From assembly GCA_945873955.1 (NCBI GenBank), contig CAMCFA010000027.1, positions 1 to 34,153 of the forward strand: a stretch of 34,153 bases of DNA. The letters are read 5' to 3'. The position numbers and the translations under genes are program-made. The notes under the pieces were generated by a model. The model saw nothing but the letters and a program-made list of their open reading frames with translations, made no database searches and was not told the DNA's origin. Shown here in pieces: positions 1,764 through 27,855 of this stretch (its first letter is position 1; each line of letters opens with the position of its first letter). This DNA is from an uncultured Clostridia bacterium (GTDB lineage Bacteria > Bacillota > Clostridia > Oscillospirales > Ruminococcaceae).

Positions 1764-4700
1764 TTACGCTAAACCAACAATTCTTTTCAGAATTGCCGCA
1801 GCGTCCATAACATTGACCTTTCCGTCGCCGTTAAAGTCCGCCATAAGCGGGTTCTTGCCCGGTTCGATCTCTACTATGTCTTTGAGAATAGCCGCAGCGT
1901 CCATAACGTTCATCACGCCGTCGTTATCCATATCGCCGAGCCGGTCGCTGAACTCGCAGAGCATTACTACATAATCGCCCTTTTCGGTGACGTCGGGCAG
2001 GATAACCTTGCCGTCCTCGCCGAGCTTCGCGCAGGTCACGAACGTCAGCTTGCCGTCAACAGACTTGTAGAGGTTCGCAAACTTCCCTGCGTGAGCTGTC
2101 TTAAACGCAACTGTGAGGTCTGTCGGGATATTCGTATTGTTCATGGAGAACTGATAACCGGATATTCCACGCAGAGTATCTGTTTTCAGCTTGCTTGTCG
2201 TGAGAATTGACAGGTCAGCCGCCGCAGGAGTAGTTATCTCTGCGCCATCTGTTTTCCAGCTCTTAACGCTGTCAACTACAAATGTTTCCTTCAATTTCTT
2301 TTCGGCAATAACCTTGATTACCTCAACGGGAACTGTGGTATTGCCGTTAAGTTCGATTGTTGCCTCTGACCCTGTTGTGAGCTTCGCAAGGTCAGCCGCA
2401 ACGTCGCTCCAACTCTTGGAAGAGCCGCCGATAGAGGGGTTATTGGGTTCTGTCGGGGTAGAGGGTCTGTTTCCGCCGCCACCTCCACCGCCGCCGGAGG
2501 ACTTCTTCTGTACGGTAAGAGTGCCGTTCTGCGCTGTGTAGGTGTAGCACTCATCTTCGGTTATCTCGATAGTAACGGTAATTGCATAAGTGCCTACCGT
2601 GCTTGTGTCTGCCGCTTCACAGGTTAGAACGGGAGTAAACGAAAGTTTATCGCCGTTCGCAAGTCCTGTTACGGAATAAGTAAATGTGGGGAGGGCAGCG
2701 TTCTGATATACAGTTTTATCATCTGCCTTGATTGTTACAGCAGCCTTGTTGACCGTTACGGTAACGGTAGTTGTCGCCTGTTCGTAAGCGTCGGTTTCAG
2801 CCGCTGTAATTTCAACGGTTGCCGTACCTGATTTCAGAGCCTTAATTGTGCCGTCTGCGGCTACGGTGATAACATCATCGCCTGTCTTGACAGAGTAGGA
2901 AATTGCTCCGTCACCGTTTGTTGTTGCGCTTATCTTCTTTTCGGTTTCGCCATAAGTCAGCGTGACATCATCGGCGGTGATCGTCTGAATTTCCTTTGTC
3001 GTAATTTTCAGAGTGCCGTCCACATAAGTGAAAGTGTGATTCGGGCTTTCATCTGCGCCCAATACTTTAATCGGGAATGTTCCTGCTGTACTGCTGTCGG
3101 TTGCGGAGCATGAAATAGTGACGGTAATCGGCAGCGTTTCGTTGCTTGCAAGACCCGTTACCTTGTACTTAAATGTCGGGAGCGCGTCGCCGACCTTGAT
3201 TGTGTAGCTGTTCGCGGTGATTGTCACAGCCGCCTTGTTTACCGTTACGGTAACCGTTTTGGTAGCTTGTGCATAAACATCGGTTTCAGCCGCTATAATT
3301 TCAACGGTCGCCGTACCCGCTTTCAGAACGGTGATAGCGCCGTCTGCGGCTACGGTGATAACATCATTGCCTGTTGTAACTGCGTAGGTAATCGCTCCGT
3401 CACCGTTTGTCGCAGCGGTAATCTTCTTGCCGCTTTCGCCATAGGTGAAGGTCACATCATCGGCGGTGATGGTCTGAATTTTCTTTGCGGTGATTGATAA
3501 TGTGCCGTTAACATAGTTGTATTCGTAATTCGTGCTTTCATCTTCGCCCGATACTCTAATCGGGAATGATCCTGCGTTGTCGCTGTTCGTTGCGGCGCAG
3601 GAAACAGTCACGGTAATGGGCAGCGTTTCGTTGTTCACAAGCCCCGATACCTTGTACTCAAATGTCGGGAGTGCGTCGCCGACCTTGACCGTGTAGCTGT
3701 TTGCGGTGATAGTCACAGCCGCCTTGTCAATAGTCCACTTGGCGTTGCTTACAGTGCCTGTGTAGTTGCCCTTGCCCGTGATAGTCACGGTGTATTCGCC
3801 TGCGTTTGTCTGCGATGATACCTCTATATCACAATCATTAGCGGTAAGCTCTGTGCCGTCAAGCGTTACCGAAAATACGGGGGTTCTTGCTCTGCCGTTG
3901 TAGGTGAATGCGTTGACCTGTTCTGCAGTTGCTGCGGAAATATCCGCGGGATTTATCGTGAATGTACCCTCGGTGAATGTAATATCATAGTTCGGGTTGT
4001 TGTCGTTTGTGAGAGTGCCCTGTGTTATATCGTATGTGCCGACATTCTCGCCCTCTGCACGGGTAAGCGTACCTGTGAGAGAATCATCACCTACAAGCGG
4101 TGTCGTATCAGATACGGTATAAGTTAATTCGGGGTCGGTTTCGCCGAAAACCTTGCTCTTGTTGTCTGCCGTAACGGTTACGGGAGCGCGGGCGATTTCA
4201 ACCTCAACGCAGTCGGGACCTGCCAGCAGGGTTTCGCCGTCTGTAACCTTGTACCAGACCTCGTAAATGCCTGCGTCCTTGCCGGTGGGGATTACTGTGT
4301 CGCTGTACTCGCCGTCCTTTGCGGAGGAATACGACATTATGCCGCTGCCTGTTGTACCTGCCGTAATAAGCTCGTGGCTTTCGCCGTCATAAACTAGGGT
4401 AGCAGCCGCAGGAGCGGTCAATGTCAGACCCGCAACCCAAGTGCTTGTATCTGCGTTATAGGTATAAACTGTTACGCTAGTGCCAACTCTTACGGTGTGG
4501 CTCTTGTCGCCGGGGAGGTAGGCGTATACATTACCGTCATCGTGCGTGGGGTATTTTACGCCGTCAATCGTTACGTCATAGCCGTTGGAGTTATCGATTG
4601 TAAGCAGATATACGGGGGTTGACATATCTGCAAGGGTGGGGGTAACTGCGTCTTTATTAAGACCGCCGCCGATAGTGTTTGAATATCCTGAAACAGCCTT

Positions 4701-7346
4701 TACAGAGCCGCCCGTGATAACAATATTTGAGGCTTCTTTCCCAGAACCTCCGCCTATGCCTGCACCATAGTTCTCTGCGTATGCTGTAACCGTACCTCCG
4801 CTTATCTTAATGTCTGAGCCGCTTCCGTCCTGACCACCGCCGATTCCCGAACCGTTTCCTGCTGAACATGTTGCGGTAACCTTACCGCCTGTTATGGTGA
4901 TATTTGAGCCACCGCCTTTTATGCCACCGCCTATTCCGGCTGCGCTATTACCTTTGGCATTTACAATGCCTCCTGTGATAAGAATATTTGAGCCATTGCC
5001 GTTATAACCGCCGCCTATTCCTGCTGTGCCGACAGCGCCGGCTGCAGTAACATTTCCGCCATTTATTGTAATGTGCTCACCATTTCCTTTATTACCGCCG
5101 CCGATTCCTGCACCATTACTATAGCTTTTAGCATATATAGTACCGCTGTTTATCGTGATATTTGAACCGCTTCCGTCCTTGCCGCCGCCGATACCTGCGC
5201 CGTCCTTGTAGCCGATTGCATTAAGCGTGCCGTTTCCGCCTATTACCAGAGCGACATTCCCATCGTTCTTTTGCAGACCTGCATAGACGTTGCCGCTTTT
5301 AAGCGTGTTTTGGGTGTCGTCCGCAAGGGTAACGGTGACTGTGCCTGTGCCGCCGTCCTCAATAAGGAAAGCCGCAGTATTATCCTTTGCCGATACGTCA
5401 ATATTCACGCCCGCAAGCGTTACATTGGCGGAAACACCGCTTGCTATTGCGATAGCGTGGTCAATGGCGTTTTCGCTGTCCTTGTTGGCGATAACAACCG
5501 GTTTCACGGTCTTTACCGTCAGAATGCTGTTTTCATAGGTGTAGTCCTCGCCCTTGACAAGCGTGCTGCCGTCCGCTGCGGTTATGCTTAGCAGCTCGTT
5601 TGATATTATCGCTTCAACGCTTTTCGGAGTTGTTCCGGTATTTTCCGAGGTGCTTTCTACCTTATACCATACGGTGTAAGTGCCGACTTCTGTTGCCGTG
5701 GGTATAGCCGAGGTGTATTCGCCGTTTTCCTCAAGCGAATATAAAAGCGTGCCGAATGTTGTATTACCTGCCGAAACAAGCTCCTGCGGTGCGCCGTTAT
5801 ACTGGAGATTTGTAAACGGCACGGGCGGTGTTACAAACGGTGCGTTAAGCCAATTGCCGTCAACATAAAACTGAACAGAATGTTCGCCCTCTGTGAGATA
5901 TATGTAGAGATTTGAGTCGGCGCTGTCAGCCGCTTTGTGGTTTATGGGTGTATAGTCTGCTCCGTCTACCTTTACAGGGTAATCACCGGTGTTCTCGTAT
6001 GTGCGAAGATATACATTTTCTCCGTTGTCATTTGTCGGTACAGTTTCTGTTTGTGAATTACCGATAGAAAAGTTCCCTTTTTCGGTAACCGTCTTTACTG
6101 AGCCGCCGGTGATTTTGATATCCAAAGCAGTATTACCAAAAAGTCCTGAGCCTATGCCGGAACCTACATTTGCGGCTATTGCAGATACTGTGCCGCCGCT
6201 TATGGTGACACCTTTGCAGTCACCATAGTATCCGCCGCCTATACCCGTGGAGGAATTGCCGGTTGCAACGACAGTACCGCCGCTTATGGCGATATCCAAA
6301 CCGCTTCCGCCTTTATTTAACGATCCGGTGCCACCGCCGCCTATGCCTGCGCCTGAATCACCGTTTGCGAAAACAATACCGCCGCTTATGGTGATGTTTG
6401 AGCCATCGCCGCCTTTGTATGCTGTGCTTCCGCCGCCGCCTATGCCTGCGCCATATTCGCCGCCGTTTGCGGTAACAGTGCCGCCGGTTATGGTGATGTC
6501 TGAGCCGACGCCGCTTGTTCTTTCATTGCTTCCGCCGCCGCCTATGCCTGCACCCAAAGAGCCGCCGGTTGCGGTAACATTGCCGCCGGTTATGGTGATG
6601 CCTGAGCCATCGCCGCTTGCACCTTGAACGCTTCCGCCGCCGCCTATGCCTGCGGCTTTCAAGTCTCCGGTTGCGGTTATTGTGCCGCCGTTTATTATAA
6701 TGTTATAGCAGCTGCCGGCTGAATTTAGCGTGCTTCCACCGCCGCCTATGCCTGCGCCAAAATAGTTGCCGGTTGCAGTGATAACACCGCCGTTGATTAT
6801 GATGTTGGAGCAGCTGCCGGCTGCATTTTCCGTGCTTCCGCCGCCGCCTATGCCCGCACAGAATGGTCCGCCCGTTGCGGTGAGCTTGCCTGTGCCGTTT
6901 TCGCCGCCGTTAATGGTGAGCGTTCCTGTGCCGCCGTTTTTCTGCAAGCCGGCTCCTTTATCGCTATCCAGCGTGTTCTCTGTGTCGTCCGCAAGGGTAA
7001 TGGTGACATCTCCGGTGCTGTCGTCTGCTATTTTGAATGCGCAACCGGGTGTATCAATATTAACTCCCGCAAGGGTGATGCTTGCGCTTGCGCCACTTTC
7101 AACCTCGATATAGTCTTTTGTCGAGGCTTCGGGGTTTTTGTTTTTGATGGTTAGCTCTGCGCCATCGCTGATTTTAACAATATAATTTAGCTCGTATAGT
7201 TCTACGTTAAAACCTTTTCCTGTCAGCTCGAAAGCGCACTGCTCCGTGTAATCCTCGGCAAACGCAATGCCGCCGAAGCTCACACCGGTAAGTGCCACCG
7301 CCGCCGCCGAAACGACCGCGGTAAGTTTCCTAAGTAGCTTGTTCAT
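1764..7346 (-). CDS. Giant secreted dockerin protein with glycine-rich repeats and MBG/Ig-like domains
   Basis: The protein has 1860 residues. The start at 7346 is chosen because AGGAGG lies just upstream and the promoter (7419-7448) excludes the longer frame. A Sec signal peptide (MNKLLRKLTAVVSAAAVALT, then GVSFGGIAFA) opens it. Residues about 165-400 and 715-895 are two blocks of a repeated unit with GAGIGGGG and 'ITISGGTVTATG' strands, probably a parallel beta-solenoid. Residues about 1055-1610 alternate MBG-type domains (KAAVTITANSYT, VGDALPTF) with Ig-like modules (IQTITADDVT, then ITVAADG). Two of these pairs are near-duplicates at DNA level (about 2740-2990 and 3230-3490). A Gly/Pro linker (about 1615-1632) and a further domain follow. 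Residues 1800-1860 form a type I dockerin with two calcium loops, DMDNDGVMN and DFNGDGKVN. It should be exported and held by a cohesin scaffold at the cell surface. No catalytic domain was recognised, so substrate binding or adhesion is inferred. Confidence 0.88.
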   Translation of the reverse strand: MNKLLRKLTAVVSAAAVALTGVSFGGIAFAEDYTEQCAFELTGKGFNVELYELNYIVKISDGAELTIKNKNPEASTKDYIEVESGASASITLAGVNIDTPGCAFKIADDSTGDVTITLADDTENTLDSDKGAGLQKNGGTGTLTINGGENGTGKLTATGGPFCAGIGGGGSTENAAGSCSNIIINGGVITATGNYFGAGIGGGGSTLNSAGSCYNIIINGGTITATGDLKAAGIGGGGSVQGASGDGSGITITGGNVTATGGSLGAGIGGGGSNERTSGVGSDITITGGTVTANGGEYGAGIGGGGSTAYKGGDGSNITISGGIVFANGDSGAGIGGGGTGSLNKGGSGLDIAISGGTVVATGNSSTGIGGGYYGDCKGVTISGGTVSAIAANVGSGIGSGLFGNTALDIKITGGSVKTVTEKGNFSIGNSQTETVPTNDNGENVYLRTYENTGDYPVKVDGADYTPINHKAADSADSNLYIYLTEGEHSVQFYVDGNWLNAPFVTPPVPFTNLQYNGAPQELVSAGNTTFGTLLYSLEENGEYTSAIPTATEVGTYTVWYKVESTSENTGTTPKSVEAIISNELLSITAADGSTLVKGEDYTYENSILTVKTVKPVVIANKDSENAIDHAIAIASGVSANVTLAGVNIDVSAKDNTAAFLIEDGGTGTVTVTLADDTQNTLKSGNVYAGLQKNDGNVALVIGGNGTLNAIGYKDGAGIGGGKDGSGSNITINSGTIYAKSYSNGAGIGGGNKGNGEHITINGGNVTAAGAVGTAGIGGGYNGNGSNILITGGIVNAKGNSAAGIGGGIKGGGSNITITGGKVTATCSAGNGSGIGGGQDGSGSDIKISGGTVTAYAENYGAGIGGGSGKEASNIVITGGSVKAVSGYSNTIGGGLNKDAVTPTLADMSTPVYLLTIDNSNGYDVTIDGVKYPTHDDGNVYAYLPGDKSHTVRVGTSVTVYTYNADTSTWVAGLTLTAPAAATLVYDGESHELITAGTTGSGIMSYSSAKDGEYSDTVIPTGKDAGIYEVWYKVTDGETLLAGPDCVEVEIARAPVTVTADNKSKVFGETDPELTYTVSDTTPLVGDDSLTGTLTRAEGENVGTYDITQGTLTNDNNPNYDITFTEGTFTINPADISAATAEQVNAFTYNGRARTPVFSVTLDGTELTANDCDIEVSSQTNAGEYTVTITGKGNYTGTVSNAKWTIDKAAVTITANSYTVKVGDALPTFEYKVSGLVNNETLPITVTVSCAATNSDNAGSFPIRVSGEDESTNYEYNYVNGTLSITAKKIQTITADDVTFTYGESGKKITAATNGDGAITYAVTTGNDVITVAADGAITVLKAGTATVEIIAAETDVYAQATKTVTVTVNKAAVTITANSYTIKVGDALPTFKYKVTGLASNETLPITVTISCSATDSSTAGTFPIKVLGADESPNHTFTYVDGTLKITTKEIQTITADDVTLTYGETEKKISATTNGDGAISYSVKTGDDVITVAADGTIKALKSGTATVEITAAETDAYEQATTTVTVTVNKAAVTIKADDKTVYQNAALPTFTYSVTGLANGDKLSFTPVLTCEAADTSTVGTYAITVTIEITEDECYTYTAQNGTLTVQKKSSGGGGGGGGNRPSTPTEPNNPSIGGSSKSWSDVAADLAKLTTGSEATIELNGNTTVPVEVIKVIAEKKLKETFVVDSVKSWKTDGAEITTPAAADLSILTTSKLKTDTLRGISGYQFSMNNTNIPTDLTVAFKTAHAGKFANLYKSVDGKLTFVTCAKLGEDGKVILPDVTEKGDYVVMLCEFSDRLGDMDNDGVMNVMDAAAILKDIVEIEPGKNPLMADFNGDGKVNVMDAAAILKRIVGLA

Positions 7347-7418
7347 GTCGTCCTCCTTTGAATATTGCTGAAATGCAGGGCTTGCCGATATATTCCCAAC
7401 ATTTGTATACTCTCTTAC

Positions 7419-7448
7419 ATTATAACACAGCAAATTTGCGTTTGTCAA
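7419..7448 (-). promoter_or_regulatory. Consensus sigma-A promoter of the dockerin gene
   Basis: On the minus strand TTGACA (7448-7443) and TATAAT (7424-7419) are 18 bp apart. Transcription would start near 7412, giving a leader of about 65 nt before the ATG at 7346. Confidence 0.8.
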
Positions 7449-7924: not shown

Positions 7925-8911
7925 TTAGGTGACTTCATCAATTCTCATTGTTTCCAGCGTCCTGACTTCCTTTACAAACTCTCCTATCACCCATTCATAC
8001 ATACCGGGATCGCTGTATTTGCGGTAAACTCTCTCAACAACCATACCCAGACGATGCCATACACGATATATCTGATTACGTATCTTCTCATCTGCTGATA
8101 ATTCGGGAATGCCGTATCCACGGAGAAAACCGGGATATGGCGCATCACCGAATTCATGGAAATCATGGCTCATGATCGGATCACCGTAAAGCACCGCTGC
8201 AAAATCGACAAGTCCGGTCAGTTTTCCGTCCTTTACCATGACATTCCCGGGCCATGTGTCTGTGTGGATAAATTTTGGCACTGCTGCTGTGTCAAGAACT
8301 CCGGAAAAGCTTTTAATAAGCTTGCGCAAATCGTTGGGCGTTATTCCGGGGAGGTCTTGAGTGCTCTCTTCTTCAAAATCAAGCAGAAGCCAGTCGATCA
8401 GCAAATATACAAATTCACTGTTGCTGTCGCATTCGCTTTCGGGAATACCGGGGATACCGAATTTTCCTGCGGAAATATTGCAGATGCTTCTTGTAATCCT
8501 GCCCATTTCTTCCTGCACTGCCATACCTTGTTCATCGGTCATGTCCTTATTATCGGAAAGAGGCGAGCCTTCAATAAAGCTCATAAAGAAATATGGCACA
8601 GTACAAACCGTTCGGCTGTCATCATAGAATAACAGCTTTGGCATAGGAATATCGGCAGATTCATTCAATAATTTCAGCATTTGCACTTCCGTAGGTATAT
8701 ATGCTCTTTCATGACGCATTACTTTGACGGAATCATCGGACGCCACTTTAAGCACAAGCTTTTCGCTGTCAGCATTTATCAGGTAGACTGCACTGCAAAA
8801 TCCGCCCGACAGCGGAGTTGCAGAAAAATTGCTCGGAGTATGTCCGAGAGCTTTTTCCGTCATTGCTTGAATAACGTTATCCGGCAGCCATTTTTTTGTT
8901 ACAGCATTCAT
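7925..8911 (-). CDS. Aminoglycoside phosphotransferase (APH)-family kinase
   Basis: This 328-residue protein has the APH/choline-kinase fold signature. There is a nucleotide-binding N-lobe (LSGGFCSAVYLI, LVLKVA around residues 34-57), the catalytic loop HTDTWPGN at 216-223 with Asp218 as the likely base and Asn223 for metal, and LVDFAAVLYGDP with metal-binding Asp236. It probably transfers phosphate from ATP to a hydroxyl of a small molecule. The substrate cannot be read from the sequence, and many family members are not antibiotic resistance enzymes. The start at 8911 is preceded by GGAAAGG. It lies 73 bp after the deaminase gene on the same strand, with no promoter I can see between them, so the two are probably cotranscribed. 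Confidence 0.85.
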   Translation of the reverse strand: MNAVTKKWLPDNVIQAMTEKALGHTPSNFSATPLSGGFCSAVYLINADSEKLVLKVASDDSVKVMRHERAYIPTEVQMLKLLNESADIPMPKLLFYDDSRTVCTVPYFFMSFIEGSPLSDNKDMTDEQGMAVQEEMGRITRSICNISAGKFGIPGIPESECDSNSEFVYLLIDWLLLDFEEESTQDLPGITPNDLRKLIKSFSGVLDTAAVPKFIHTDTWPGNVMVKDGKLTGLVDFAAVLYGDPIMSHDFHEFGDAPYPGFLRGYGIPELSADEKIRNQIYRVWHRLGMVVERVYRKYSDPGMYEWVIGEFVKEVRTLETMRIDEVT

Positions 8912-8984
8912 AATTTTGACCTTTCCATTTCGGTTTTGTGGTTTGAGTCAGCAAATCATCGTGTGAACGAATTTTAATTATCGA

Positions 8985-9605
8985 TCAAGGAGTATGTGAG
9001 AGTATATAATCGTATACTTCCGAAAAGGGTTTCTGCTCACGGGAAAAGGCGTCAAGTGTCTTCTCTCTGAACAGCTTTTCCGCAAGTATAACCGCAAGTT
9101 CGTTTGTTTCACGAAATCGGTTAAGCACAATGTCGCTTGCGCCCTGACTGACATATCTGAATTCATGATAACTCTGAATAGTGAGCTGTACAAATTCCAT
9201 TTCATCATCTGCAAAGGAATAATCAAGACGCTGCCCCATCAGATATGGGTCGCTGTCTTTAAGATGAACGCAGCCGCAGTACATATCTCTTGCGGCGTAT
9301 CTGAGGTGCTTTATGTTAGACATCACTGCTGTTCCCATACACATAGGGCAAGGCTCCATTGTCGCGTAAAGAACAAGCGTTTTGGGGTTATAATGAGACG
9401 TGTCGAGCCTGCGCAGAGCGTTTGCCTCAGCGTGGGCGATGTTTCTGTTCACGCTGTCCGGTTCGTTTGAGCGATTATGTTCTCGCAGAATGATGTGACC
9501 GTTTTCTTCGGCAATAACAGCCCCTATCGGTATGCTTCCGCTTTTAAATGAAGCCCATGCTTCTTCAAACGCACACTGCCAAGCTTCGGATAAGTTGTTC
9601 CACAT
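8985..9605 (-). CDS. CMP/dCMP-type zinc deaminase
   Basis: The protein has 206 residues. It carries the zinc deaminase motifs HAE (58-60, zinc ligand His58 and proton shuttle Glu60) and PCPMC (85-89, zinc ligands Cys86 and Cys89), inside the usual order 'PIGAVI ... HAEANAL ... MEPCPMCMG'. The first 150 residues correspond to the guanine/tRNA-adenosine deaminase branch. The remaining 55 residues form an extension. It should deaminate an amino-substituted base, but which one (guanine, cytosine or a tRNA adenosine) is open. CAGGAGG upstream of the ATG at 9605 and a good promoter (9640-9668) support this start. It leads the short operon with the APH-family gene. Confidence 0.85.
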   Translation of the reverse strand: MWNNLSEAWQCAFEEAWASFKSGSIPIGAVIAEENGHIILREHNRSNEPDSVNRNIAHAEANALRRLDTSHYNPKTLVLYATMEPCPMCMGTAVMSNIKHLRYAARDMYCGCVHLKDSDPYLMGQRLDYSFADDEMEFVQLTIQSYHEFRYVSQGASDIVLNRFRETNELAVILAEKLFREKTLDAFSREQKPFSEVYDYILSHTP

Positions 9606-9639
9606 ATTTTACCTCCTGATGAACTGACTAATTTTTTCT

Positions 9640-9668
9640 ATTATAGCACGCTTTTAGGATTAAATCAA
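9640..9668 (-). promoter_or_regulatory. Sigma-A promoter of the deaminase-APH operon
   Basis: On the minus strand TTGATT (9668-9663) and TATAAT (9645-9640) are exactly 17 bp apart. The leader to the ATG at 9605 would be about 28 nt and carries the AGGAGG. Confidence 0.75.
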
Positions 9669-9700
9669 GCCTTAACCGGCAGGTGGGTCAAGGCTTGATT
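9663..9700. repeat. 11-bp inverted repeat covering the deaminase -35 box
   Basis: AATCAAGCCTT (9663-9673) is the exact reverse complement of 9690-9700, with 16 bp between. The left arm includes the -35 hexamer of the deaminase promoter. It may be an operator, or a hairpin between the two divergent units. Confidence 0.55.
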
Positions 9701-9784
9701 ACATGAAATAGACTTATCAATGTCAACTCCAATGCCAACAGCGATTTACAAAGCAGCGTATTCCTAAAAAACTGAAAAACTCTG

Positions 9785-9813
9785 TTGCATTTTTGCGTAT
9801 ATGATGTTATAAT
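9785..9813 (+). promoter_or_regulatory. Sigma-A promoter of the helicase operon
   Basis: TTGCAT (9785-9790) and TATAAT (9808-9813) are 17 bp apart. The leader to the ATG at 9850 is about 30 nt and includes GGCGGTG before the start. Confidence 0.75.
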
Positions 9814-9849
9814 TATATAAATCGACATGAAGTAACAGGCGGTGACACT

Positions 9850-12800
9850 ATGAGCAAGATAGTATTCGTAGACAGCGAAATCAGCCACAGCGGCGAAATC
9901 TGCGACCTCGGCGCGGTCACACCCGAGGGCGGAAGAATACACACGTCCTCTCACAGCAAGTTTTCTGACTTCGTATCGGGCTGCAATTATGTCTGCGGGC
10001 ATAATCTGATTGCCTATGATTTGAAGTATATCAGAAATCTGATTCTGGGCGATTATATTGCAATTGATACCCTCACCATATCCCCGCTTCTTTTCCCGAA
10101 AAAGCCATATCACCATCTGCTGAAAGACTACAAAATCCAGACCGAGCAGCTTAACGATCCAGCTAACGACGCTGCTTTGTGCATGGAGCTGTTCTTCGAC
10201 GAGGTAGAGGCGTTTAATGCGCTTGACGAAAAACTGAAAGCGGTTTTCTTTGCGCTGATTGGCACAAGGCGCGAGTACATCGGTTTTTTCGATTATGTGG
10301 ATTACATCAGCAAGGAACCCCCCGAGAGCCTTATCCGTGAGCGCTTTTCGCAGAACATTTGCGGAAGCGCGGATTTGTCGGCGATCATTTCCCGCTACCC
10401 CGTGGAGCTTGCATATTGCCTTGCGCTTATCAGCGCCGACGACAGGGATTCGATTATCCCGCACTGGGTGCACCGCAACTTCCCCGCGGTTGAGTTTGTT
10501 ATGCGAGCGCTACGCGGAACGCCCTGCAATAACTGCGCTTTCTGCAATCGCGAGCACAATATCCACACAAAGCTGAAGCAGTATTTCGGCTACGACAGCT
10601 TCCGCACTTACGACGGTGAGCGGCTTCAGGAAAGAGCGGCGCAGGCGGCTGTGGACAACAAATCGCTTATCGTGGTATTCCCGACGGGCGGCGGCAAGTC
10701 GGTTACATTCCAGCTTCCTGCGCTGATGTCGGGCGATTCCTGCCGCGGACTTACCGTTGTAATCTCGCCGCTCCAGTCGCTGATGAAAGATCAGGTGGAC
10801 AACCTCGTTGAAAAAGGCATTGCCGACGCGGTGACGATAAACGGACTGCTTGACCCCGTGGAGCGTGCAAGCGCAATAGAGCGCATTCAGAACGGACAGG
10901 CTTCGCTGCTGTACATCTCGCCCGAATCGCTCCGCTCAAAGACGATAGAAAAACTCCTGCTCAACCGCCACATAACCCGCTTTGTCATTGACGAGGCGCA
11001 CTGCTTTTCTGCATGGGGGCAGGATTTTCGCGTTGACTATCTGTACATAGGCGACTTTATCCGCGAATTGCAGGAGAAGAAAAACCTCTCCGAGCCGATT
11101 CCCGTGTCCTGCTTTACCGCCACCGCAAAGCAGAAAGTAATCAGCGACATCAGCGACTATTTCCGCAGAAAACTCGGAATAGAAATGGAACTTTTCGCAT
11201 CGGGTGCGGCGCGGCACAATCTGCGTTACGAGGTGCTTTACAAAGAGAACGATGAGGAGAAATACCTTGCACTCAGAAATCTGCTGACAGCCAAAAACTG
11301 CCCCTCAATCGTCTATGTATCTAAGGTCAAGAGGACCTATTCTCTTGCGACAAGGCTTTCTGCGGACGGAATAAATGCGCTGCCTTTCAACGGAAAAATG
11401 GACAAGAGCGAAAAGGTTGCGAACCAAGAGAAATTTATGAGCGGCGAGGTCAATGTTATCGTGGCGACCTCGGCTTTCGGCATGGGCGTTGATAAGTCTG
11501 ACGTAGGGCTTGTGGTTCATTTCGACATCTCGCCCTCGCTGGAGGATTATGTTCAGGAGGCAGGCAGAGCGGGGCGTGACGAGGAGCTTCAGGCGGAATG
11601 CTATGTGCTGTTCAAGGACGAGGATTTGGACGGACATTTTATGATGCTTAATCAGAGCAAGCTGTCTATCAAGGAAATAAACCAGATTTGGCGCGCGGTC
11701 AAGGAATGCTCGCGCTATCGAATGACGTTCACCCGCTCCGCTTTAGAGCTTGCGCGAATCGCAGGCTGGAACGACGAGCAGGACGAAATCGAAACCCGCG
11801 TCACAAACGCGATAAACGCGCTGGAAACCGCTGGATATCTGAAACGTGGGAAGAACGTGCCGCGCGTATTTGCGTCCAGCATAAACGCAAAGAACTACAC
11901 CGAAGCGGCAGAGAAGATAAACGGACTTGATAAGCTTGACGACAAGCACAAGCAGTTTGCCGCGAGAATAATCCGCTGCATGATATCCGAAAGAAGCCGC
12001 GCAGACGCGGGAAATAACGAAGCCGAGAGCCGCGTTGACCACCTCTCCGACATTCTCGGAATACCCATGGAGGACGTGGTATTCTGTATCGGCTCTATGC
12101 GCGAAAGCGGGGTTCTTGCCAACGCAAACGACCTCACCGCCTATATCCGCAGAAACGACACAATGCGCAAATCCGCCAAAATTCTCGAAAGATATGCCGC
12201 GCTGGAGCGTTTCCTGCTTAACAGCATAACCGAGGGTGTAGAGTTCTATAACCTCAAAGACCTTAACGAGCAGGCGCAGAAAGCGGGCATTTCCTCCGCT
12301 TCCGTAAAGGCGATAAAGACGCTGCTATATTTCTTTATGATAAAGGACTATATGCAAAAATCCCATATTTCGGGAGAAGAAGTTCAGATTGTTTTGTCCG
12401 ATGATATTGCGAGAATTAAGGCAAAGTCCGAAAAGCGCATTTCGGCTGCGGAGAATATTCTTGAACTGCTCTACGAAAAGGCAGAGGAGCTGAAAGCGCC
12501 CGAAAAGGACGAGATACTCGTGGAGTTTTCGGAGCTTGAGCTGCTGGAATACTGCGGTGAGCGCTCTCTTGAAAAGCCCGACATGGAGGACATAAAGTCA
12601 GCCCTGCTCTACCTCTCAAAGATAGGCGCGATTGACATCGAGGGCGGCTTTTTGGTGCTGTACAACGCCATGCAGATAACCCGTCTTGAGCAGAACAACA
12701 AAATCAGCTACAAGACCGAGGATTACAAGCAGCTAAGCGAGTTTTACAAGCAGAAAATTCAGCAGATACACATTGTCGGCGAGTACGCGAATATGATGAC

Positions 12801-14625
12801 CCGCGACTATGACGCGGCGCTGCGGTTCGTGTCCGACTATTTCGGAATGGACTACAAGAAGTTTATTGCGAAGTATTTCGCAGGTCGCGAAAAGGAGATT
12901 AACCGCAACATCACCCCCGAGAAATTCGACCGGATTTTCGGGGAGCTTTCTCCTTGTCAGCAGAATATAATTAACGATGACGCGTCTAAGTACATTGTCG
13001 TTACGGCGGGACCGGGAAGCGGCAAGACAATGGTGCTTGTCCGCAAGCTTGCTTCTCTCTATCAGATGGAGGACACCAAGCACGAGCAGCTTCTTATGCT
13101 GACCTTCTCCCGCACGGCGGCAACGGAGTTCAGGCAGCGGCTGTGTGCGCTAATGGGCGGTGCGGTGCGCTATATGGACATAAAGACCTTCCATAGCTAC
13201 TGCTTTGATATTACGGGAAGAATAGGATCGCTTGAAAACTCCGCGGATATAGTGGCGCAGGCGGCGAGAATGATTTCCGAGGGCGAAGTCGAGCAGGGGC
13301 AAATCACAAAAACCGTTGCCGTAATTGACGAAGCGCAGGATATGGACGCGAACGAGTTTGCGCTGATAAAAGCGCTTATGGAGCGCAACGAGGATATGCG
13401 CGTTATTGCCGTAGGCGACGACGACCAGAACATCTACGAGTTCCGTAATTCAAGCTCCGCGCACATGGCAAGCCTTATCACCGAGTACGGCGCGGCGCAT
13501 TACACAATGGTAGACAACTACCGCAGCGCCCGCAGAATCGTGACTCTCGCCAACGCCTACGCCGAGAGGATATCCAACCGTCTTAAGAATGAACCTATCC
13601 GTGCCGTGCGTGAGGAAGAGGGCGTTGTAAAGCTGATTAAGCATACGGCAAAGCACATGGATATCCCCGTTGCCGACTGCCTGCAAGGCACTTGGCACAG
13701 CGGCACCGCCGCAATTCTCACTACCACAAACGACGACGCTTTGCGTATGCTCGGGCTGCTGACAAAGCGCGGTATTCCCGCAAGGCTTATTCAAAGCAGC
13801 GATGGTTTCCGTATGAGCCAGCTTTCCGAGGTGAAGATGTTATGCAAACTGTTAGAGCGCAATTCCGAGGGCAATTCGCCGACAATTCCCGAAAGAGTAT
13901 GGAACAGCGCAAAGGAGCAGCTTCGCGAAAAATACAGCGAAAGCACCTGCCTTGAAACGGTGCTGAATATGCTGTCGCAGTTTGAGGAGGTGAGCGGCGG
14001 AGCACTGTACAAATCGGATTTCGATATGTTCATTTTTGAGTCAAGCTATGACGCCTTTACTCTACAGGAGCAGAATGCCGTAACGATATCCACTATTCAC
14101 AAGGCAAAGGGACGTGAGTTTGACAATGTGTACATCATGCTGAATCAATCGTGCGACAGCACCGACGAGGAAAAGCGCAAGATTTATGTGGGCATGACCC
14201 GCGCAAAAAATGCGCTGTACATTCACTATAACAATGCGGTTTTCGACAATATTTCCGTCGAGGGAATCGAATGCGAAACCGACAGCAGCGATTATCCCGA
14301 GCCGGACGAGCTTGTAATGCAGCTTGGAATGAAAGATGTGTTCCTTGATTTCTTCATCGGGAAGAAAGCCGAGGTTTTCGCACTGAAAAGCGGTGACGAG
14401 TTGGAGATAAGGGGCGACGTCCTCTTCGCAAACGGGAATAAGCTTGTCATTCCGTCAAAGGCGGTGAGGGGAAAGCTTGCGGTTTTGCGCGAAAAGGGCT
14501 ATGCGCCGTACAAGGCGAGGGTGTGCTTTATTGTTGAGTGGGTAAAGCAGGAAACAGGAGAATCCGCGGCGGTTATACTGCCCGAGATTTGGCTGAAAAA
14601 GAGCGAGGAGCAAAGCGCTCCCTGA
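9850..14625 (+). CDS. Exonuclease-RecQ-UvrD fusion helicase
   Basis: This 1591-residue protein has four parts in order. Residues 1-115 resemble a DnaQ/DEDD exonuclease (Asp8, Glu10, Asp57, Asp107), but the usual His of the last motif is Asn102. Residues 226-236 hold a cysteine cluster, CNNCAFCNREH. Residues about 260-600 are a RecQ-type SF2 helicase with Walker A TGGGKS near 280, DEAH at 381-384 and GRAGRD near 575. Residues about 1030-1470 are a UvrD/PcrA-type SF1 helicase with TAGPGSGKT at 1052-1060, DEAQD at 1160-1164, STIHKAKG near 1415 and VGMTRAK near 1448. The canonical RecQ zinc domain after the helicase is not seen. It probably processes DNA ends or forks in the cytoplasm. Whether it serves repair or defence is not shown. 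The next gene begins 21 bp downstream and is likely cotranscribed. Confidence 0.92.
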   Translation: MSKIVFVDSEISHSGEICDLGAVTPEGGRIHTSSHSKFSDFVSGCNYVCGHNLIAYDLKYIRNLILGDYIAIDTLTISPLLFPKKPYHHLLKDYKIQTEQLNDPANDAALCMELFFDEVEAFNALDEKLKAVFFALIGTRREYIGFFDYVDYISKEPPESLIRERFSQNICGSADLSAIISRYPVELAYCLALISADDRDSIIPHWVHRNFPAVEFVMRALRGTPCNNCAFCNREHNIHTKLKQYFGYDSFRTYDGERLQERAAQAAVDNKSLIVVFPTGGGKSVTFQLPALMSGDSCRGLTVVISPLQSLMKDQVDNLVEKGIADAVTINGLLDPVERASAIERIQNGQASLLYISPESLRSKTIEKLLLNRHITRFVIDEAHCFSAWGQDFRVDYLYIGDFIRELQEKKNLSEPIPVSCFTATAKQKVISDISDYFRRKLGIEMELFASGAARHNLRYEVLYKENDEEKYLALRNLLTAKNCPSIVYVSKVKRTYSLATRLSADGINALPFNGKMDKSEKVANQEKFMSGEVNVIVATSAFGMGVDKSDVGLVVHFDISPSLEDYVQEAGRAGRDEELQAECYVLFKDEDLDGHFMMLNQSKLSIKEINQIWRAVKECSRYRMTFTRSALELARIAGWNDEQDEIETRVTNAINALETAGYLKRGKNVPRVFASSINAKNYTEAAEKINGLDKLDDKHKQFAARIIRCMISERSRADAGNNEAESRVDHLSDILGIPMEDVVFCIGSMRESGVLANANDLTAYIRRNDTMRKSAKILERYAALERFLLNSITEGVEFYNLKDLNEQAQKAGISSASVKAIKTLLYFFMIKDYMQKSHISGEEVQIVLSDDIARIKAKSEKRISAAENILELLYEKAEELKAPEKDEILVEFSELELLEYCGERSLEKPDMEDIKSALLYLSKIGAIDIEGGFLVLYNAMQITRLEQNNKISYKTEDYKQLSEFYKQKIQQIHIVGEYANMMTRDYDAALRFVSDYFGMDYKKFIAKYFAGREKEINRNITPEKFDRIFGELSPCQQNIINDDASKYIVVTAGPGSGKTMVLVRKLASLYQMEDTKHEQLLMLTFSRTAATEFRQRLCALMGGAVRYMDIKTFHSYCFDITGRIGSLENSADIVAQAARMISEGEVEQGQITKTVAVIDEAQDMDANEFALIKALMERNEDMRVIAVGDDDQNIYEFRNSSSAHMASLITEYGAAHYTMVDNYRSARRIVTLANAYAERISNRLKNEPIRAVREEEGVVKLIKHTAKHMDIPVADCLQGTWHSGTAAILTTTNDDALRMLGLLTKRGIPARLIQSSDGFRMSQLSEVKMLCKLLERNSEGNSPTIPERVWNSAKEQLREKYSESTCLETVLNMLSQFEEVSGGALYKSDFDMFIFESSYDAFTLQEQNAVTISTIHKAKGREFDNVYIMLNQSCDSTDEEKRKIYVGMTRAKNALYIHYNNAVFDNISVEGIECETDSSDYPEPDELVMQLGMKDVFLDFFIGKKAEVFALKSGDELEIRGDVLFANGNKLVIPSKAVRGKLAVLREKGYAPYKARVCFIVEWVKQETGESAAVILPEIWLKKSEEQSAP

Positions 14626-14646
14626 TGATTTTGATGAGGTGAGAAT

Positions 14647-15267
14647 ATGACAGAGCTTGACAAGCTGATTCGTGCAGAATCCTATATCCGCAAAATGGCA
14701 AACGGAATAAATCCCATCACAGATGAAACTGCCGCTGATGACGATATGGTCAACAACGTCCGCGTAACACGATGCCTTTACTATGTGTCGGATATTTTGA
14801 GACAGGTTATTGCAAACAACGGCGTGGTTGAAAAGAAACCCAGCGGTTCGGGCAAAAAAGTAGATTTCTATATGACCGATGAACAGCGGGCTAATCTCGT
14901 TGAATTTGACCATCCTGTTTTTCTGAGGGAATTAGTTGATGAAATCAACCGACTGACCGAAGCAAATCACTGTAAGAAATTTGCGGCAAGGTGGATAAGA
15001 GCCTATTTGGTAAGCATAGGATTGCTTGTTGCCGATGCAGATTTCGTCTCAAAATATGCGACGGAGGAGGGTGTAAATCTTGGCATTATTCCGGAACTGC
15101 GTCAGTCGCAGCAATCAATGAGAGAGTATTGGGTAAACCAATACTCGCCGGAAGCTCAGCGGTTCCTTATTGACAATATTGATACCATAGTCGAATTTGC
15201 CAAATCGCCTCAGTATACTCAGTTTACCCACCCCGAAAGCACCAATAATGTCTCCTCTGCCGAATAA
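14647..15267 (+). CDS. Unrecognised 206-residue partner of the fusion helicase
   Basis: It follows the helicase gene by 21 bp with its own GAGGTGAG ribosome binding site, so both proteins are probably made together. No transmembrane segment, signal peptide or catalytic motif is visible. The N-terminal half (AESYIRKMANGINPITDE) is predicted helical. The middle contains DEINRLTEANHCKKFAARWI followed by RAYLVSIGLL, which could be a winged-helix-like DNA-binding unit. The last 15 residues look disordered. I do not know a function. Its position suggests a role with the helicase, for example as a substrate adaptor, but that is inference. Confidence 0.8.
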   Translation: MTELDKLIRAESYIRKMANGINPITDETAADDDMVNNVRVTRCLYYVSDILRQVIANNGVVEKKPSGSGKKVDFYMTDEQRANLVEFDHPVFLRELVDEINRLTEANHCKKFAARWIRAYLVSIGLLVADADFVSKYATEEGVNLGIIPELRQSQQSMREYWVNQYSPEAQRFLIDNIDTIVEFAKSPQYTQFTHPESTNNVSSAE

Positions 15268-15379: not shown

Positions 15380-15416
15380 AACATTAACAATGTTTCACAG
15401 AAAAAGGGAGATACGT

Positions 15417-15737
15417 ATGCCAACAATAACACACAACAAACTCGTCCGCGATAAAATCCTCGAAATAATCACCTCTGCGGGCAAGCAGGCGGTAACGCGC
15501 ATATTGTCCGATGAAGAATACCTCGCCGAGCTTGACAGAAAGCTTACCGAGGAGTGCACCGAGTATCAGGCGGACAAGAGTATTGAGGAAATGGCAGATG
15601 TGCTCGAGGTGGTGTACGCTATCGCCGAGGCGCGGGGGTATTCCGTGGAGGAATTGGAGCGCCTTAGAGCGGCAAAAGCCGAAAAGCGCGGCGGGTTTGC
15701 GGACAGGATTTTCCTTGAGAAAGTTGTGGAGAACTGA
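15417..15737 (+). CDS. MazG-like nucleotide pyrophosphohydrolase
   Basis: The protein has 106 residues. The start at 15417 has AAGGGAG 7 nt upstream; a longer frame from 15348 begins at the promoter and is rejected. The N-terminus HNKLVRDKILEII is typical of the all-alpha phosphoribosyl-ATP pyrophosphohydrolase-like branch. The metal-binding pattern is present: KLTEECTEYQ around residues 41-50 and EEMADVLEV around 56-64. Members remove pyrophosphate from (d)NTPs or related nucleotides in the cytoplasm. The next gene starts one base after the stop, so translation is probably coupled. Confidence 0.85.
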   Translation: MPTITHNKLVRDKILEIITSAGKQAVTRILSDEEYLAELDRKLTEECTEYQADKSIEEMADVLEVVYAIAEARGYSVEELERLRAAKAEKRGGFADRIFLEKVVEN

Positions 15738-20460: not shown

Positions 20461-21672
20461 ATGTCTGAATTGCGAGTTTATAAAAGGGGTTGTAATTGGG
20501 TGTATCGTTTTGAGATTGCATCCGAGAACGGGAAACGCAAGTTTGCTCAAAAATGTGGTTTCAAAACCAAAAAGGAAGCACTTGAACAAGGCACGGCTGC
20601 ATTCAATGCGTTCAATTCGACAGGTCAAACCATTACTATCTCGGAGATAGGCGTTGCCGATTATTTGAACGAATGGCTCGAGAACATTCAGACAAGCATA
20701 AAGCCAAACACCCTTGCAGGATACAGGAAGAAAATCAATTCCTATATTATCCCCAGATTAGGCAATTACAAGGTAAAAAATCTCACTGCATCTATTCTTC
20801 AAAAATTCATCAATGATTTATTTGACAATGGATATAGCAGAAATACCTTGATTAATATAAAGGCAATTCTATCAAGCTCTCTTAATTATGCTATTGAACC
20901 AATGCACTACATAATCTCAAACCCAATGAATTTTGTTAAGTTACCCTCTCCGAGAGTTGAGCCGCATATTCCAACGAGGTCAAACCCGCACGTTTTTATT
21001 GAAAAGGAAGATATGCAACGGATTTTTGAACGCTTTCCGGAGCGGTCAACAGCCCATATTCCCCTTATGCTTGGTTACAAATGCGGACTCCGTTTAGGAG
21101 AGGCATTTGGAATATGCTGGGAAGATATTGACCTTGACAAGAAAACCATCGAAATCAAGCGCCAGGTTCAATGGAAAGACAAGAACAAGGATAATCCGGA
21201 GGACGGCAGCTATTGGTACTTTTCAAAACCGAAATACGATAGCTGTAGAACAATCACAATAGATTCCGAACTCTGTGAACTGCTGAAAAGAGAAAGAGAG
21301 CGTCAACGCAAAGCCCAAGACTATTATGACGAACTCTATGTTCACAACTTCAGGACTCAATCCGGAAGGCTGAATACCGTTGGTGATGGAGAGGAAGTAC
21401 ATCTTCTCTGCATCAGGGAGAGCGGAGATTTCACACAGCCGAGAATTATGCAGCACACATCTCACATTATAAATAGCGACTTGAACATTAAGTTTGATTT
21501 CCATTCATTAAGGCACACACATTGCAGTATGTTACTCACAGCAGGAGCCAAGCCGAAATATGTTCAAGAAAGGCTCGGACACAAAAACATTCAGGTAACA
21601 TTGCAGATATATCAGCATCTTACTGAGGAAATGAAATCGCAAGGTGACTCCATACTGGAGGAAATGTTTTAA
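20461..21672 (+). CDS. int: Tyrosine recombinase (ICE integrase)
   Basis: The 403-residue length is typical of ICE integrases. It has an N-terminal arm-binding part (residues 1-55), a SAM-like core-binding domain (about 60-145, VADYLNEWLENIQ to LSSSLNYAI) and a catalytic domain. Active-site residues are visible: Arg211 in CGLRLGEAFG, His348 and Arg351 in HSLRHTH, His374 in RLGHKN, and nucleophile Tyr384 in QIYQHL. It is complete and should cut and join the element ends at attP and attB. AGGAGG precedes the ATG by 7 nt. A strong terminator isolates it from the partition genes. Confidence 0.95.
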   Translation: MSELRVYKRGCNWVYRFEIASENGKRKFAQKCGFKTKKEALEQGTAAFNAFNSTGQTITISEIGVADYLNEWLENIQTSIKPNTLAGYRKKINSYIIPRLGNYKVKNLTASILQKFINDLFDNGYSRNTLINIKAILSSSLNYAIEPMHYIISNPMNFVKLPSPRVEPHIPTRSNPHVFIEKEDMQRIFERFPERSTAHIPLMLGYKCGLRLGEAFGICWEDIDLDKKTIEIKRQVQWKDKNKDNPEDGSYWYFSKPKYDSCRTITIDSELCELLKRERERQRKAQDYYDELYVHNFRTQSGRLNTVGDGEEVHLLCIRESGDFTQPRIMQHTSHIINSDLNIKFDFHSLRHTHCSMLLTAGAKPKYVQERLGHKNIQVTLQIYQHLTEEMKSQGDSILEEMF

Positions 21673-21693
21673 CCCACTAAATCTGAATACCAC

Positions 21694-21720
21694 AAAGGCA
21701 GGCAAACACCTGCCTTTTTT
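21694..21720 (+). terminator. Rho-independent terminator of the integrase gene
   Basis: AAAGGCAGG (21694-21702) and CCTGCCTTT (21709-21717) form a 9-bp stem around CAAACA, with a run of T to 21720. Confidence 0.85.
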
Positions 21721-21735
21721 ATATACAACTTTGAT

Positions 21736-21878
21736 AATCCCCCCGCTCCGGGGATTAGATACCTCCTACTACGGTGGGCAGTTTTCCGTCTGCCCACCAA
21801 TACGGTAAATAGCCGAAAGGCTTTTACATATATAAATCGGCAGACCGTTTTTTACTCCTTTTTAGCGGTCTGCCGATT
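21736..21878. other. Hairpin-rich segment between integrase and partition genes
   Basis: Three perfect inverted repeats follow one another: AATCCCC/GGGGATT (21736-21756), GGTGGGCAG/CTGCCCACC (21773-21798) and a 13-bp pair starting AATCGGCAGACCG (21835-21847 with 21866-21878). Such clusters are typical of conjugation or replication origins and of partition sites, but none of these roles is proven. The third stem has an 18-nt loop with two T-runs, so it could also act as a terminator or regulatory RNA. Confidence 0.5.
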
Positions 21879-21919
21879 CTCATAAAAAGGATTGCACTTT
21901 TATAATATGGGAGGCTATT

Positions 21920-22189
21920 ATGAACACGCAGGACAAGAACAACCAGGCAGAGGCAGAACAGATATTCCTTGAAAGCTGCATTGCTTTAACCGAGGTAGCT
22001 GCCGACCTTGTGAACACCGTCGAGGAACAGCGCAGAATTATCGACTTGCAGAGAGAACTCATCAAGACGCAGGGTGAGCTTATCAAGAGAGATAACGCTC
22101 TCATAAGTGTACTCCTTGCGGTATCTCCGTTATGCGAAAGTAAGGATCCCCTCGTCGAGGTGATTGACAAGCTGGTGGAGGTGTTCTGA
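21920..22189 (+). CDS. Small coiled-coil protein upstream of ParA
   Basis: The protein has 89 residues, with GGGAGG 6 nt before the ATG. Residues about 25-65 form a probable coiled coil (EEQRRIIDLQRELIKTQGEL). There is no membrane segment. It ends 2 bp before parA, so it belongs to the partition operon and may bind DNA or the ParA/ParB complex; that is inference from position. Confidence 0.75.
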   Translation: MNTQDKNNQAEAEQIFLESCIALTEVAADLVNTVEEQRRIIDLQRELIKTQGELIKRDNALISVLLAVSPLCESKDPLVEVIDKLVEVF

Positions 22190-22191
22190 TA

Positions 22192-22983
22192 ATGGAAGGA
22201 AAGAAACCTACGATTATCGCTGTTGCCAATCAGAAAGGCGGCGTTGGAAAAACCGTTACCGTGGTCAATCTTGCCGCGGCACTTGCAGAACTCGGCAATA
22301 AGGTTCTCTGTATTGACATCGACCCGCAGGGAAATTTGAGCGACTATCTCGGCTATGACTTTGACAACAATAGTCATACCGTTGCCGACGTAATGAAAGG
22401 CACTTGCCATCTGTCAAACTGTATCGTGTTCAACGAAGCGGAGAATATCTACTATGTCCCCGTAGATATTACCCTTGCGACAGCAGACCTTTTCCTCGCT
22501 CAAACAATGTGCCGCGAACAGGTACTCCGTCATGCTATCGTCACCGATGAGGAAATTGACAAATTCGATTACATTCTGATTGATTGTCTGCCGTCACTCG
22601 GTATTCTTCTCACCAATGCGCTTGCTGTTGCTGACGGGGTGATTATTCCCGTGCAAATGCAGAAATTCGCACTCAATGGCATAGTGCAGTTTGAGGATAT
22701 ATTCAATCTCGTAAAGGAGAACATCAATCCGAAACTCCGTATTTTCGGCATACTTGAAACCATGACCGAGCGCACAGCTATGTCGAAGGAAATAGACAAG
22801 GTGCTGAACAACCGGTATAACGACCTTGTTTTCGGAACGAAGATAAGCCGCCGTATTGAAGCTGCCAACAGCACTGCCGAGAGAATATCTCTTGTGTCAA
22901 AGAAAAGCTCTACTATCGGCGATCAGTATAGGCAGCTTGCACAGGAAATACTTAATAAGGAGGCTGCACCAAATGGCGTTTAA
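22192..22983 (+). CDS. parA: ParA/Soj-family partition ATPase
   Basis: The protein has 263 residues and the deviant Walker A of ParA proteins, KGGVGKT (15-21), then DIDPQGN (42-48) and Walker B YILIDCLPS (about 125-133). ParA binds DNA non-specifically in its ATP form and moves ParB-bound DNA, here probably stabilising the excised circular ICE. It overlaps parB by 11 nt. Confidence 0.93.
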   Translation: MEGKKPTIIAVANQKGGVGKTVTVVNLAAALAELGNKVLCIDIDPQGNLSDYLGYDFDNNSHTVADVMKGTCHLSNCIVFNEAENIYYVPVDITLATADLFLAQTMCREQVLRHAIVTDEEIDKFDYILIDCLPSLGILLTNALAVADGVIIPVQMQKFALNGIVQFEDIFNLVKENINPKLRIFGILETMTERTAMSKEIDKVLNNRYNDLVFGTKISRRIEAANSTAERISLVSKKSSTIGDQYRQLAQEILNKEAAPNGV

Positions 22984-24088: not shown

Positions 24089-24273
24089 GCGAAAAAGACA
24101 GCAAAGGGCTGTTTTCCGCCGAAATAAAGATTGAGGAACAGGAAACGCCTAAAATGAACGAGGCACAGCACAAGGCACTTAACCGCAAGATACTATTTCT
24201 TATCAGCCTGTTTGCCGGCTTTTCGCTGTTAAGCCTATTTATGCGATTCCTAATGGACATCACCGGTTCATAG
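24085..24273 (+). CDS. Small single-pass membrane protein
   Basis: The protein has 62 residues and starts with TTG, overlapping the parB stop as TTGA. AAAGGAG lies 11 nt upstream. One hydrophobic helix is present near the C-terminus (ILFLISLFAGFSLLSLF). The N-terminal half is charged and cytoplasmic. Function is unknown. The overlap shows that it belongs to the partition operon. Confidence 0.7.
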   Translation: MSEKDSKGLFSAEIKIEEQETPKMNEAQHKALNRKILFLISLFAGFSLLSLFMRFLMDITGS

Positions 24274-24300
24274 AGCCGTGATATACCCCATCTTTCCAAC

Positions 24301-24328
24301 GGGCGCATATTCTCCCATCTATGCGCCC
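24301..24328 (+). other. Hairpin in the leader of the replication operon
   Basis: GGGCGCATA (24301-24309) and TATGCGCCC (24320-24328) are perfect 9-bp arms with a 10-nt loop. It is followed by further pairing (TAGTATATG against CATACACTA, one mismatch) up to the terminator-like hairpin at 24388. I recognise no known riboswitch. Confidence 0.5.
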
Positions 24329-24387
24329 ACATTTCCGGCCGATAGTATATGCAGGTGCAACTCCGGCAGGCTGGACCATACACTACC

Positions 24388-24417
24388 GGCTCCCGACAGA
24401 AAACGGGAGCCTATTTT
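24388..24417 (+). terminator. Terminator or attenuator before the replication genes
   Basis: GGCTCCCG (24388-24395) and CGGGAGCC (24404-24411) pair around an 8-nt loop, followed by TATTTTTGTTTT. It sits only about 20 bp before the next gene, so downstream genes need read-through, antitermination or a promoter inside this leader. Confidence 0.75.
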
Positions 24418-24439
24418 TGTTTTCAGCAGGAGGTATTAC

Positions 24440-24754: not shown

Positions 24755-24767
24755 GAGGTGCAGCGCC

Positions 24768-25778: not shown

Positions 25779-25790
25779 CGGAGGTTTTTA

Positions 25791-27501: not shown

Positions 27502-27512
27502 TGAATAAGAAA

Positions 27513-27534: not shown

Positions 27535-27540
27535 ATAGCC

Positions 27541-27852: not shown

Positions 27853-27855
27853 GGA

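Follow-up and report, generated by a model that had tools for sequence, protein, structure and literature searches.

The locus described here raises the question of what a single large gene that joins a putative exonuclease to two helicases does, and whether the small gene directly behind it belongs to it. In an earlier note, made from the sequence alone, the pair had been put forward as a candidate for an undescribed DNA-processing or defence system. The window, i.e., the whole stretch of DNA that was analysed, comprises 34,153 nucleotides of an uncultured Clostridia bacterium; no tRNA genes and no Rfam families at gathering score were found within it. The features used in the following are:

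7925-9605, minus strand: APH-like kinase and TadA-like deaminase, left flank of the variable site
9700-9849, no strand: left edge of the variable cargo
9850-14625, plus strand: exonuclease-RecQ-UvrD fusion, 1591 residues, ATG start, from the open reading frame and profile matches
9850-10260, plus strand: DEDD exonuclease domain, residues ~1-137, with D8, E10, D57, D107 and N102
10525-10545, plus strand: CxxCxxC cluster (C226, C229, C232) directly before the RecQ core, from an alignment of 89 sequences
10567-11724, plus strand: RecQ-type SF2 core, residues ~240-625
11725-12939, plus strand: linker, residues ~626-1030
12940-14259, plus strand: compact UvrD-type SF1 helicase, residues ~1031-1470
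14647-15267, plus strand: 206-residue partner, ATG start, with a helical N-terminal part and a winged-helix-like part (residues ~70-190)
15416-15540, no strand: right edge of the variable cargo
20461-34153: integrative-element-like block to the right of the cargo, cut by the contig end

The fusion of three enzymes on one chain, as claimed in the earlier note, was borne out by domain matches and conserved motifs. Pfam E-values of the fusion were 1.5e-30 for UvrD-helicase, 4.4e-28 for DEAD, 1.1e-23 for UvrD_C and 2.2e-20 for Helicase_C, and both the RecQ (DEAD/Helicase_C) and the UvrD-type domains scored far over the curated Pfam cut-offs. The protein also exceeded the cut-off of the RecQ family model TIGR00614 of NCBIfam (273.8 bits against 219.8). 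The scores with the DpdF model NF041063 (214.3 bits, cut-off 550) and the NCBIfam PcrA equivalog (116.4 bits, cut-off 911.2) remained below the respective limits, placing the fusion outside Dpd and the PcrA equivalog. RQC, HRDC and RecQ_Zn_bind domains were not found in the fusion, including its linker, at Pfam E-values up to 0.01; RQC, HRDC and RecQ zinc-binding domains are not present in every RecQ-type protein.

The active sites were compared in an alignment of 89 fusion sequences of more than 1400 residues (79 mapped loci and 10 plasmid copies), the loci having been retrieved with exonuclease-domain patterns that leave out both the catalytic residues and the UvrD half. As had been stated before, the Walker A and B motifs of both motors are intact (FPTGGGKS/DEAH and GPGSGKT/DEAQ); both Walker A lysines were conserved in 89 of 89 sequences and both DE pairs in 88-89. 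The key residues of SF1 motifs III-VI and SF2 motif VI were likewise kept in 88-89 of 89. The SF1 half was earlier called a complete UvrD. This is correct with respect to motifs I-VI of the UvrD/PcrA SF1A helicases, all of which are present, but the half is compact and its subdomain 1B short: PcrA residue 101 aligned to fusion residue 1123 and residue 196 of a UvrD to residue 1131, which puts the apparent loss in subdomain 1B at about 85 residues. The CxxCxxC cluster at residues 226-232, retained in 85-86 of the 89 fusions, possibly binds metal.

The assignment of the N-terminal domain as a DnaQ-like exonuclease held in part. The four carboxylates are present (D8, E10 and D57 in 89/89, D107 in 88/89), but the position of the catalytic His of DEDDh enzymes is taken by Asn102. 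In DEDDh exonucleases, this His is located five residues before the last Asp, while DEDDy enzymes have a Tyr four residues before it. The fusion family conforms to neither pattern, as residue 102 is Asn in 86 of the 89 sequences (Ser in two, Lys in one) and position 103 is Asn in 79 and Asp in 8. The domain from the single fusion sequence gave no Pfam match, and a 15-row profile best matched chains named 'exodeoxyribonuclease III' (E 0.00085, best stretch 0.0085), which we take to be TREX-type; in the profile alignment, N102 was located opposite the His of a solved exonuclease. With Asn instead of His, the exonuclease may be weak or even inactive. The spread of this Asn-type DEDD site across several phyla is part of what is newly mapped here.

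The fusion is a widespread but patchy family that is not unique to the window genome. It was present in 14 of 200 relatives and in 11 of 43 genomes within the genus; among the 14, the copy of G015 is a fragment with stops, that of G026 has in-frame stops near its end, and those of G003, G030 and G035 are divided between contigs. In the plasmid collection, 383 records matched by tblastn, mostly via the RecQ part, and in 13 records one place covered at least 80% of the fusion query. The plasmid records inspected came from Bacteroides, Phocaeicola, Aliarcobacter, Allochromatium, Thiothrix, Sulfitobacter, Scytonema, Microvirga, Calothrix, Nostoc, Cereibacter, Pseudanabaena, Rhizobium and Paracoccus, with some records unannotated at the fusion gene. 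A scan of genome contigs with the exonuclease domain yielded at least 377 confirmed matches, the best 80 of which were examined and carried titles mostly of Clostridia, Ruminococcus, Oscillospiraceae, Lachnospiraceae and Bacteroidales. Viral contigs from a virus catalogue contributed 22 exonuclease-domain matches, of which 12 were mapped and L096-L105 left out. The fusion start was found in 92 of the 93 mapped loci and an open reading frame of more than 1400 residues in 79; most of the remaining loci were cut by contig ends, and in L112, L146 and L160 the gene is divided into two reading frames. One Nostoc copy (L192 8824-15569) is interrupted by an IS1634 transposase gene. The two-motor helicase-nuclease probably occurs in hundreds of species, and in the annotated records inspected it is labelled only as 'RecQ family ATP-dependent DNA helicase' or similar. 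In agreement with the earlier statement, no description of a system with the same set was found among the open-access papers listed; passages of PMC5512222 and PMC9122126 concern other proteins.

Sequence comparison of species points to horizontal movement of the fusion gene. Between the window genome and G003, RpoB was 82% and the fusion 91% identical over 1205 aligned residues; for G035 the values were 82% and 93% over 836 aligned residues. In comparison with G005 and G033, RpoB was 81-82% and the fusion 56% identical. RpoB values for G026 and G036 were excluded because of a wrong or partial frame, and G015 has no comparable fusion. Since a large repair-type protein is thus more alike than RpoB between some species, transfer appears to be indicated.

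The surroundings of the gene were compared with those in congeners. On the left, the window shares DNA with G003 up to 9700 and with G004 up to 9720; on the right, shared DNA resumes at 15416 (G003), 15483 (G021) and 15539 (G004). Contig 67 of G003 matches window positions 8050-9700 (97%) and then again from 15416 (78%), and the kinase and deaminase genes of the left flank are 96-97% identical with G003 and G004. Between the edges, G003 carries other cargo (L051 1692-5467), namely a 551-residue protein with RNase_T and Ada-Zn-like matches, a NADAR protein that is the PADLOC candidate PDC-M42C, and a 355-residue partner homologue with an RNase-H-like tail; its own fusion is located on another contig. 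In G004, about 0.95 kb of other DNA is found in place of the cargo. With other cargo at the same site in two congeners, fusion and partner are to be regarded as cargo of a variable site. To the right, the block at 20461-34153 contains genes for a tyrosine integrase, ParA, ParB, a replication-initiator-like protein and DUF4320/ParB as well as LPD18-like, TraG-like P-loop and helicase genes. An integrative element therefore probably begins about 5 kb from the fusion cargo, which may or may not belong to it. Further to the left, the minus strand encodes at 1764-7448 a 1894-residue protein that combines a dockerin with MBG and beta-helix repeats and suggests a cellulosome-type organism.

Several copies of the fusion lie beside defence genes. 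On an Allochromatium plasmid, a type I restriction-modification system is located about 1 kb from the fusion, and on a Thiothrix plasmid Cas6 and CRISPR I-D genes are found at about 4-9 kb. On a Scytonema plasmid typed as conjugative (L082 2-12974), the DISARM genes drmA-drmB-drmC lie upstream of the fusion on the same strand. In Nostoc ATCC 53789 a viperin gene is located about 4 kb away, and in Nostoc C052 a helicase with BREX/Druantia-type likeness adjoins the fusion. Toxin-antitoxin genes occur near the fusion in several annotated plasmid records and HipA, at greater distance, near another plasmid copy; no clear defence genes were seen around the fusion in several other annotated plasmid records. 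In L140, a PDC-S06 candidate defence gene (9314-11191, called by a simple ORF finder) overlaps the fusion end on the same strand, and L165 has an equally long reading frame likewise overlapping it.

For a quantitative view, 140 of 302 neighbour genes from 29 of 65 loci in genome contigs were scanned with PADLOC, together with 134 control genes taken from 18 of 20 regions chosen by hand. The neighbours matched 78 PADLOC families; the 25 listed correspond, by distinct names, to about 10 genes, as one gene may match several models. Among them were PtuA/PtuB of Septu, a type IV restriction enzyme and a number of candidate PDC families. The control matched two families, mad3 in 5 genes and mad8 in 1. 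Comparing about 10 of 140 with 6 of 134 resulted in a Fisher p of 0.44, and with the MADS-component hits of the control set aside (0 of 134) in a p of 0.0017. Pfam matches of the 140 neighbours comprised PDDEXK_9, Fic and AAA families, and many metabolic families as well. The check for defence islands proposed earlier thus gave a divided answer, defence genes standing beside several copies while the enrichment depends on how the control is counted. Enrichment of the neighbourhood for defence genes is no more than suggestive. A defence role of the fusion is plausible.

The second gene was found as described earlier: an open reading frame of 206 residues begins 21 bp past the fusion, with GAGGTG preceding its ATG. 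It was said to belong to no known family, and indeed Pfam, NCBIfam, PADLOC and PHROGs gave zero matches. Homologues occur in 18 of 200 relatives, and a partner profile matched in 27 of 391 genomes of the class, in three of these only inside RecQ proteins and in two as short partial matches. The plasmid collection contained no match, and among phages two short unannotated records from human faeces were found. The scan of viral contigs confirmed none with close partner relatives; L084, a viral contig retrieved via the fusion, carries a distant homologue.

By sequence, the partner matched solved structures weakly (winged-helix type, E 0.066; RNase H, E 1.5), and its winged-helix reading is based on the sequence and on the secondary structure in a model of the homologue in L127. 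A fold search with this model listed RNase H rows throughout. Longer homologues carry a tail with an RNase H fold, which is absent from the window protein. The L127 tail reads SVGSC, ILTG and TSTP at what, by eye, appear to be the catalytic stretches, and hence lacks the RNase HI carboxylates. Other homologues have a small HTH-like piece as tail. Most homologues are located away from any fusion, and the neighbours of such orphan genes are unrelated. In L064 (8796-10435), the homologue is followed about 20 bp on by a 345-residue macro-domain protein, while in L051 the gene before the homologue encodes a NADAR protein, as also, judged by DNA match, in L072. The partner may conceivably be part of ADP-ribosylation systems, although these are three cases and most neighbours are unrelated.

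The view of the small protein as a dedicated partner did not survive. It adjoins only 11 of 79 judged fusions, most homologues lie elsewhere, and the 68 fusions without it exclude a strict dedication. The judged set comprised 79 of the 89 rows, ten with less than 700 bases downstream being left out; 10 plasmid rows were scored as 'none' since the plasmid collection had no partner match, and L084, L122 and L153 were counted as positive despite a short downstream flank (8 of 76 without them). The partner follows the fusion in the window, L110, L117, L121, L125, L127, L128 and L153 (where the contig ends), precedes it on the same strand in L122 and, with one gene between, in L120, and is divergent in L084. 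L110, L127 and L153 correspond to G033, G005 and G113 under their record names and do not add cases. In G003 both genes are present but unlinked, and in G035 a partner remnant of 30-40 residues is located beside the fusion.

The expected co-occurrence, on the other hand, was observed: the partner is present in 6 of 14 genomes with a fusion and in 12 of 186 others (Fisher p 0.0004, kinship ignored). About 0.008 adjacencies would be expected by chance against the 11 observed in 79 loci, assuming one genome in 12 with one copy, 2500 genes and three neighbour slots. On the fusion tree (FastTree, with long-branch warnings), the partner label changes nine times, eight of these changes being required by well-supported branches; of 500 shuffles, 35 needed equally few changes, indicating that the partner is barely clustered on the tree. 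Adjacency far over rough chance together with several origins makes an optional functional link between partner and fusion likely.

Further evidence came from canonical RecQ helicases. Among the loci examined, seven reading frames of more than 380 residues contain the partner domain; they come from six genomes and are all RecQ proteins with a CxxCxxC ribbon; RQC, HRDC and RecQ_Zn_bind were found in the three scanned. L270, L271, L272, L279, L280 and L285 represent canonical RecQ with an extra C-terminal winged-helix-like domain, which no Pfam model covered in the three proteins scanned. The partner profile, which contained no RecQ rows, matched RecQ C-termini with hmmsearch i-values of 3.9e-25, 3.5e-21 and 5.1e-18. 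By blastp, the window partner matched the RecQ proteins of G373, G484 and G225 at 6e-8 to 6e-9 and that of G597 at 2.5e-6, while those of G611 and G781 gave no match. The fusion of the domain to RecQ in six genomes argues for the 206-residue protein being a RecQ accessory module supplied in trans. The unnamed domain is thus built into RecQ in some species and in others encoded by its own gene next to the fusion.

Taken together, we give about even chances to a mobile helicase-nuclease whose substrate is foreign or damaged DNA and whose accessory protein is exchangeable. Enzymatic activity, an anti-invader role and complex formation of fusion and partner are what we infer from sequence features. 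Two motors of different superfamilies, RecQ and compact UvrD, would open and strip DNA, motors of both families running 3'-to-5'. The RecQ core would open forks or branched DNA, the compact UvrD motor would pull DNA or strip proteins, and the metal-dependent DEDD exonuclease, with Asn for His, would trim the freed 3' end. Most likely, the protein would serve to attack or disable invading DNA, such as that of phages and plasmids, or DNA damaged by invaders. The winged-helix part of the partner may guide the complex and probably binds DNA or docks on the RecQ core, being an optional accessory in trans that corresponds to the C-terminus of RecQ in some Bacillota; the RNase-H-like or HTH-like tails of its homologues suggest exchangeable targeting. 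A more specific proposal, i.e., a one-gene anti-invader class combining a WRN-like exonuclease-RecQ with a GajB-like motor, an Asn-type DEDD site and an exchangeable winged-helix accessory in trans whose tail tunes the DNA recognised, is more tentative and, in our view, less likely than not. If the defence reading is true, a large single-gene system has been overlooked.

It is possible, but on balance unlikely, that the fusion is not a defence effector but an accessory repair or recombination enzyme serving mobile elements, e.g., a WRN-like resection or fork-restart helicase for plasmids, integrative elements and proviruses. Both helicase types, RecQ and UvrD, serve in DNA repair, the exonuclease-RecQ arrangement resembles WRN (by the aligned RecQ part), ParA/ParB or ParG, SSB or replication genes are found close to two plasmid copies, and the window copy is about 5 kb from the integrase-ParA-ParB-TraG-like block. 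However, in the window genus the fusion occupies, as cargo, a site at which a NADAR protein is found elsewhere, and several fusion records adjoin defence systems without any single element type. A housekeeping repair protein of the clade, to which the conserved motifs and the position of some copies among metabolic genes would fit, is very improbable. The locus is not universally present and syntenic but patchy and mobile: it is found in 14 of the 200 relatives and 11 of the 43 genomes of the genus, its site holds other cargo elsewhere, and the fusion is more alike than RpoB between some species; patchy distribution and RpoB comparison led to rejection of this explanation.

The fusion may also be real and the 206-residue gene unrelated cargo or an orphan regulator, there by chance. 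This we consider doubtful: the many homologues apart from fusions amid unrelated neighbours and the 68 of 79 fusions without partner speak for it, but adjacency is about thousand-fold over rough chance, with several origins and differing gene orders, and RecQ helicases of six genomes carry this domain as a fused part.

Among known systems, DinG of Bacillus subtilis likewise combines a DEDD exonuclease with a helicase on one chain and is reported to degrade single-stranded DNA 3'-to-5', but its helicase is XPD-like and a single motor. Hachiman (HamAB) is similar as a helicase-nuclease set with a reported antiphage role; it consists of two proteins of other helicase and nuclease families. RqlHI and PsyrTA pair a RecQ-like helicase with a small partner, and the PsyrT model matched the RecQ part at 1.8e-79. 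These systems have neither UvrD nor exonuclease and a partner of another kind, and the 206-residue protein, having no PADLOC match, does not qualify as a PsyrA-type partner. Among the UvrD-type PADLOC matches listed for the fusion, GajB of Gabija was the best for its UvrD half. GajB is a protein of its own that carries neither an exonuclease nor a RecQ domain, and models of the OLD nuclease GajA had no match in the ten window proteins scanned (for the fusion, among the matches listed), which sets the locus apart from Gabija. WRN is similar in having a DEDD-type exonuclease N-terminal to a RecQ core, the alignment covering the RecQ part. WRN is of the DEDDy type, contains RQC and HRDC and lacks a UvrD motor, whereas the fusion carries Asn at the His site, is unmatched by RQC and HRDC, and possesses a second motor.
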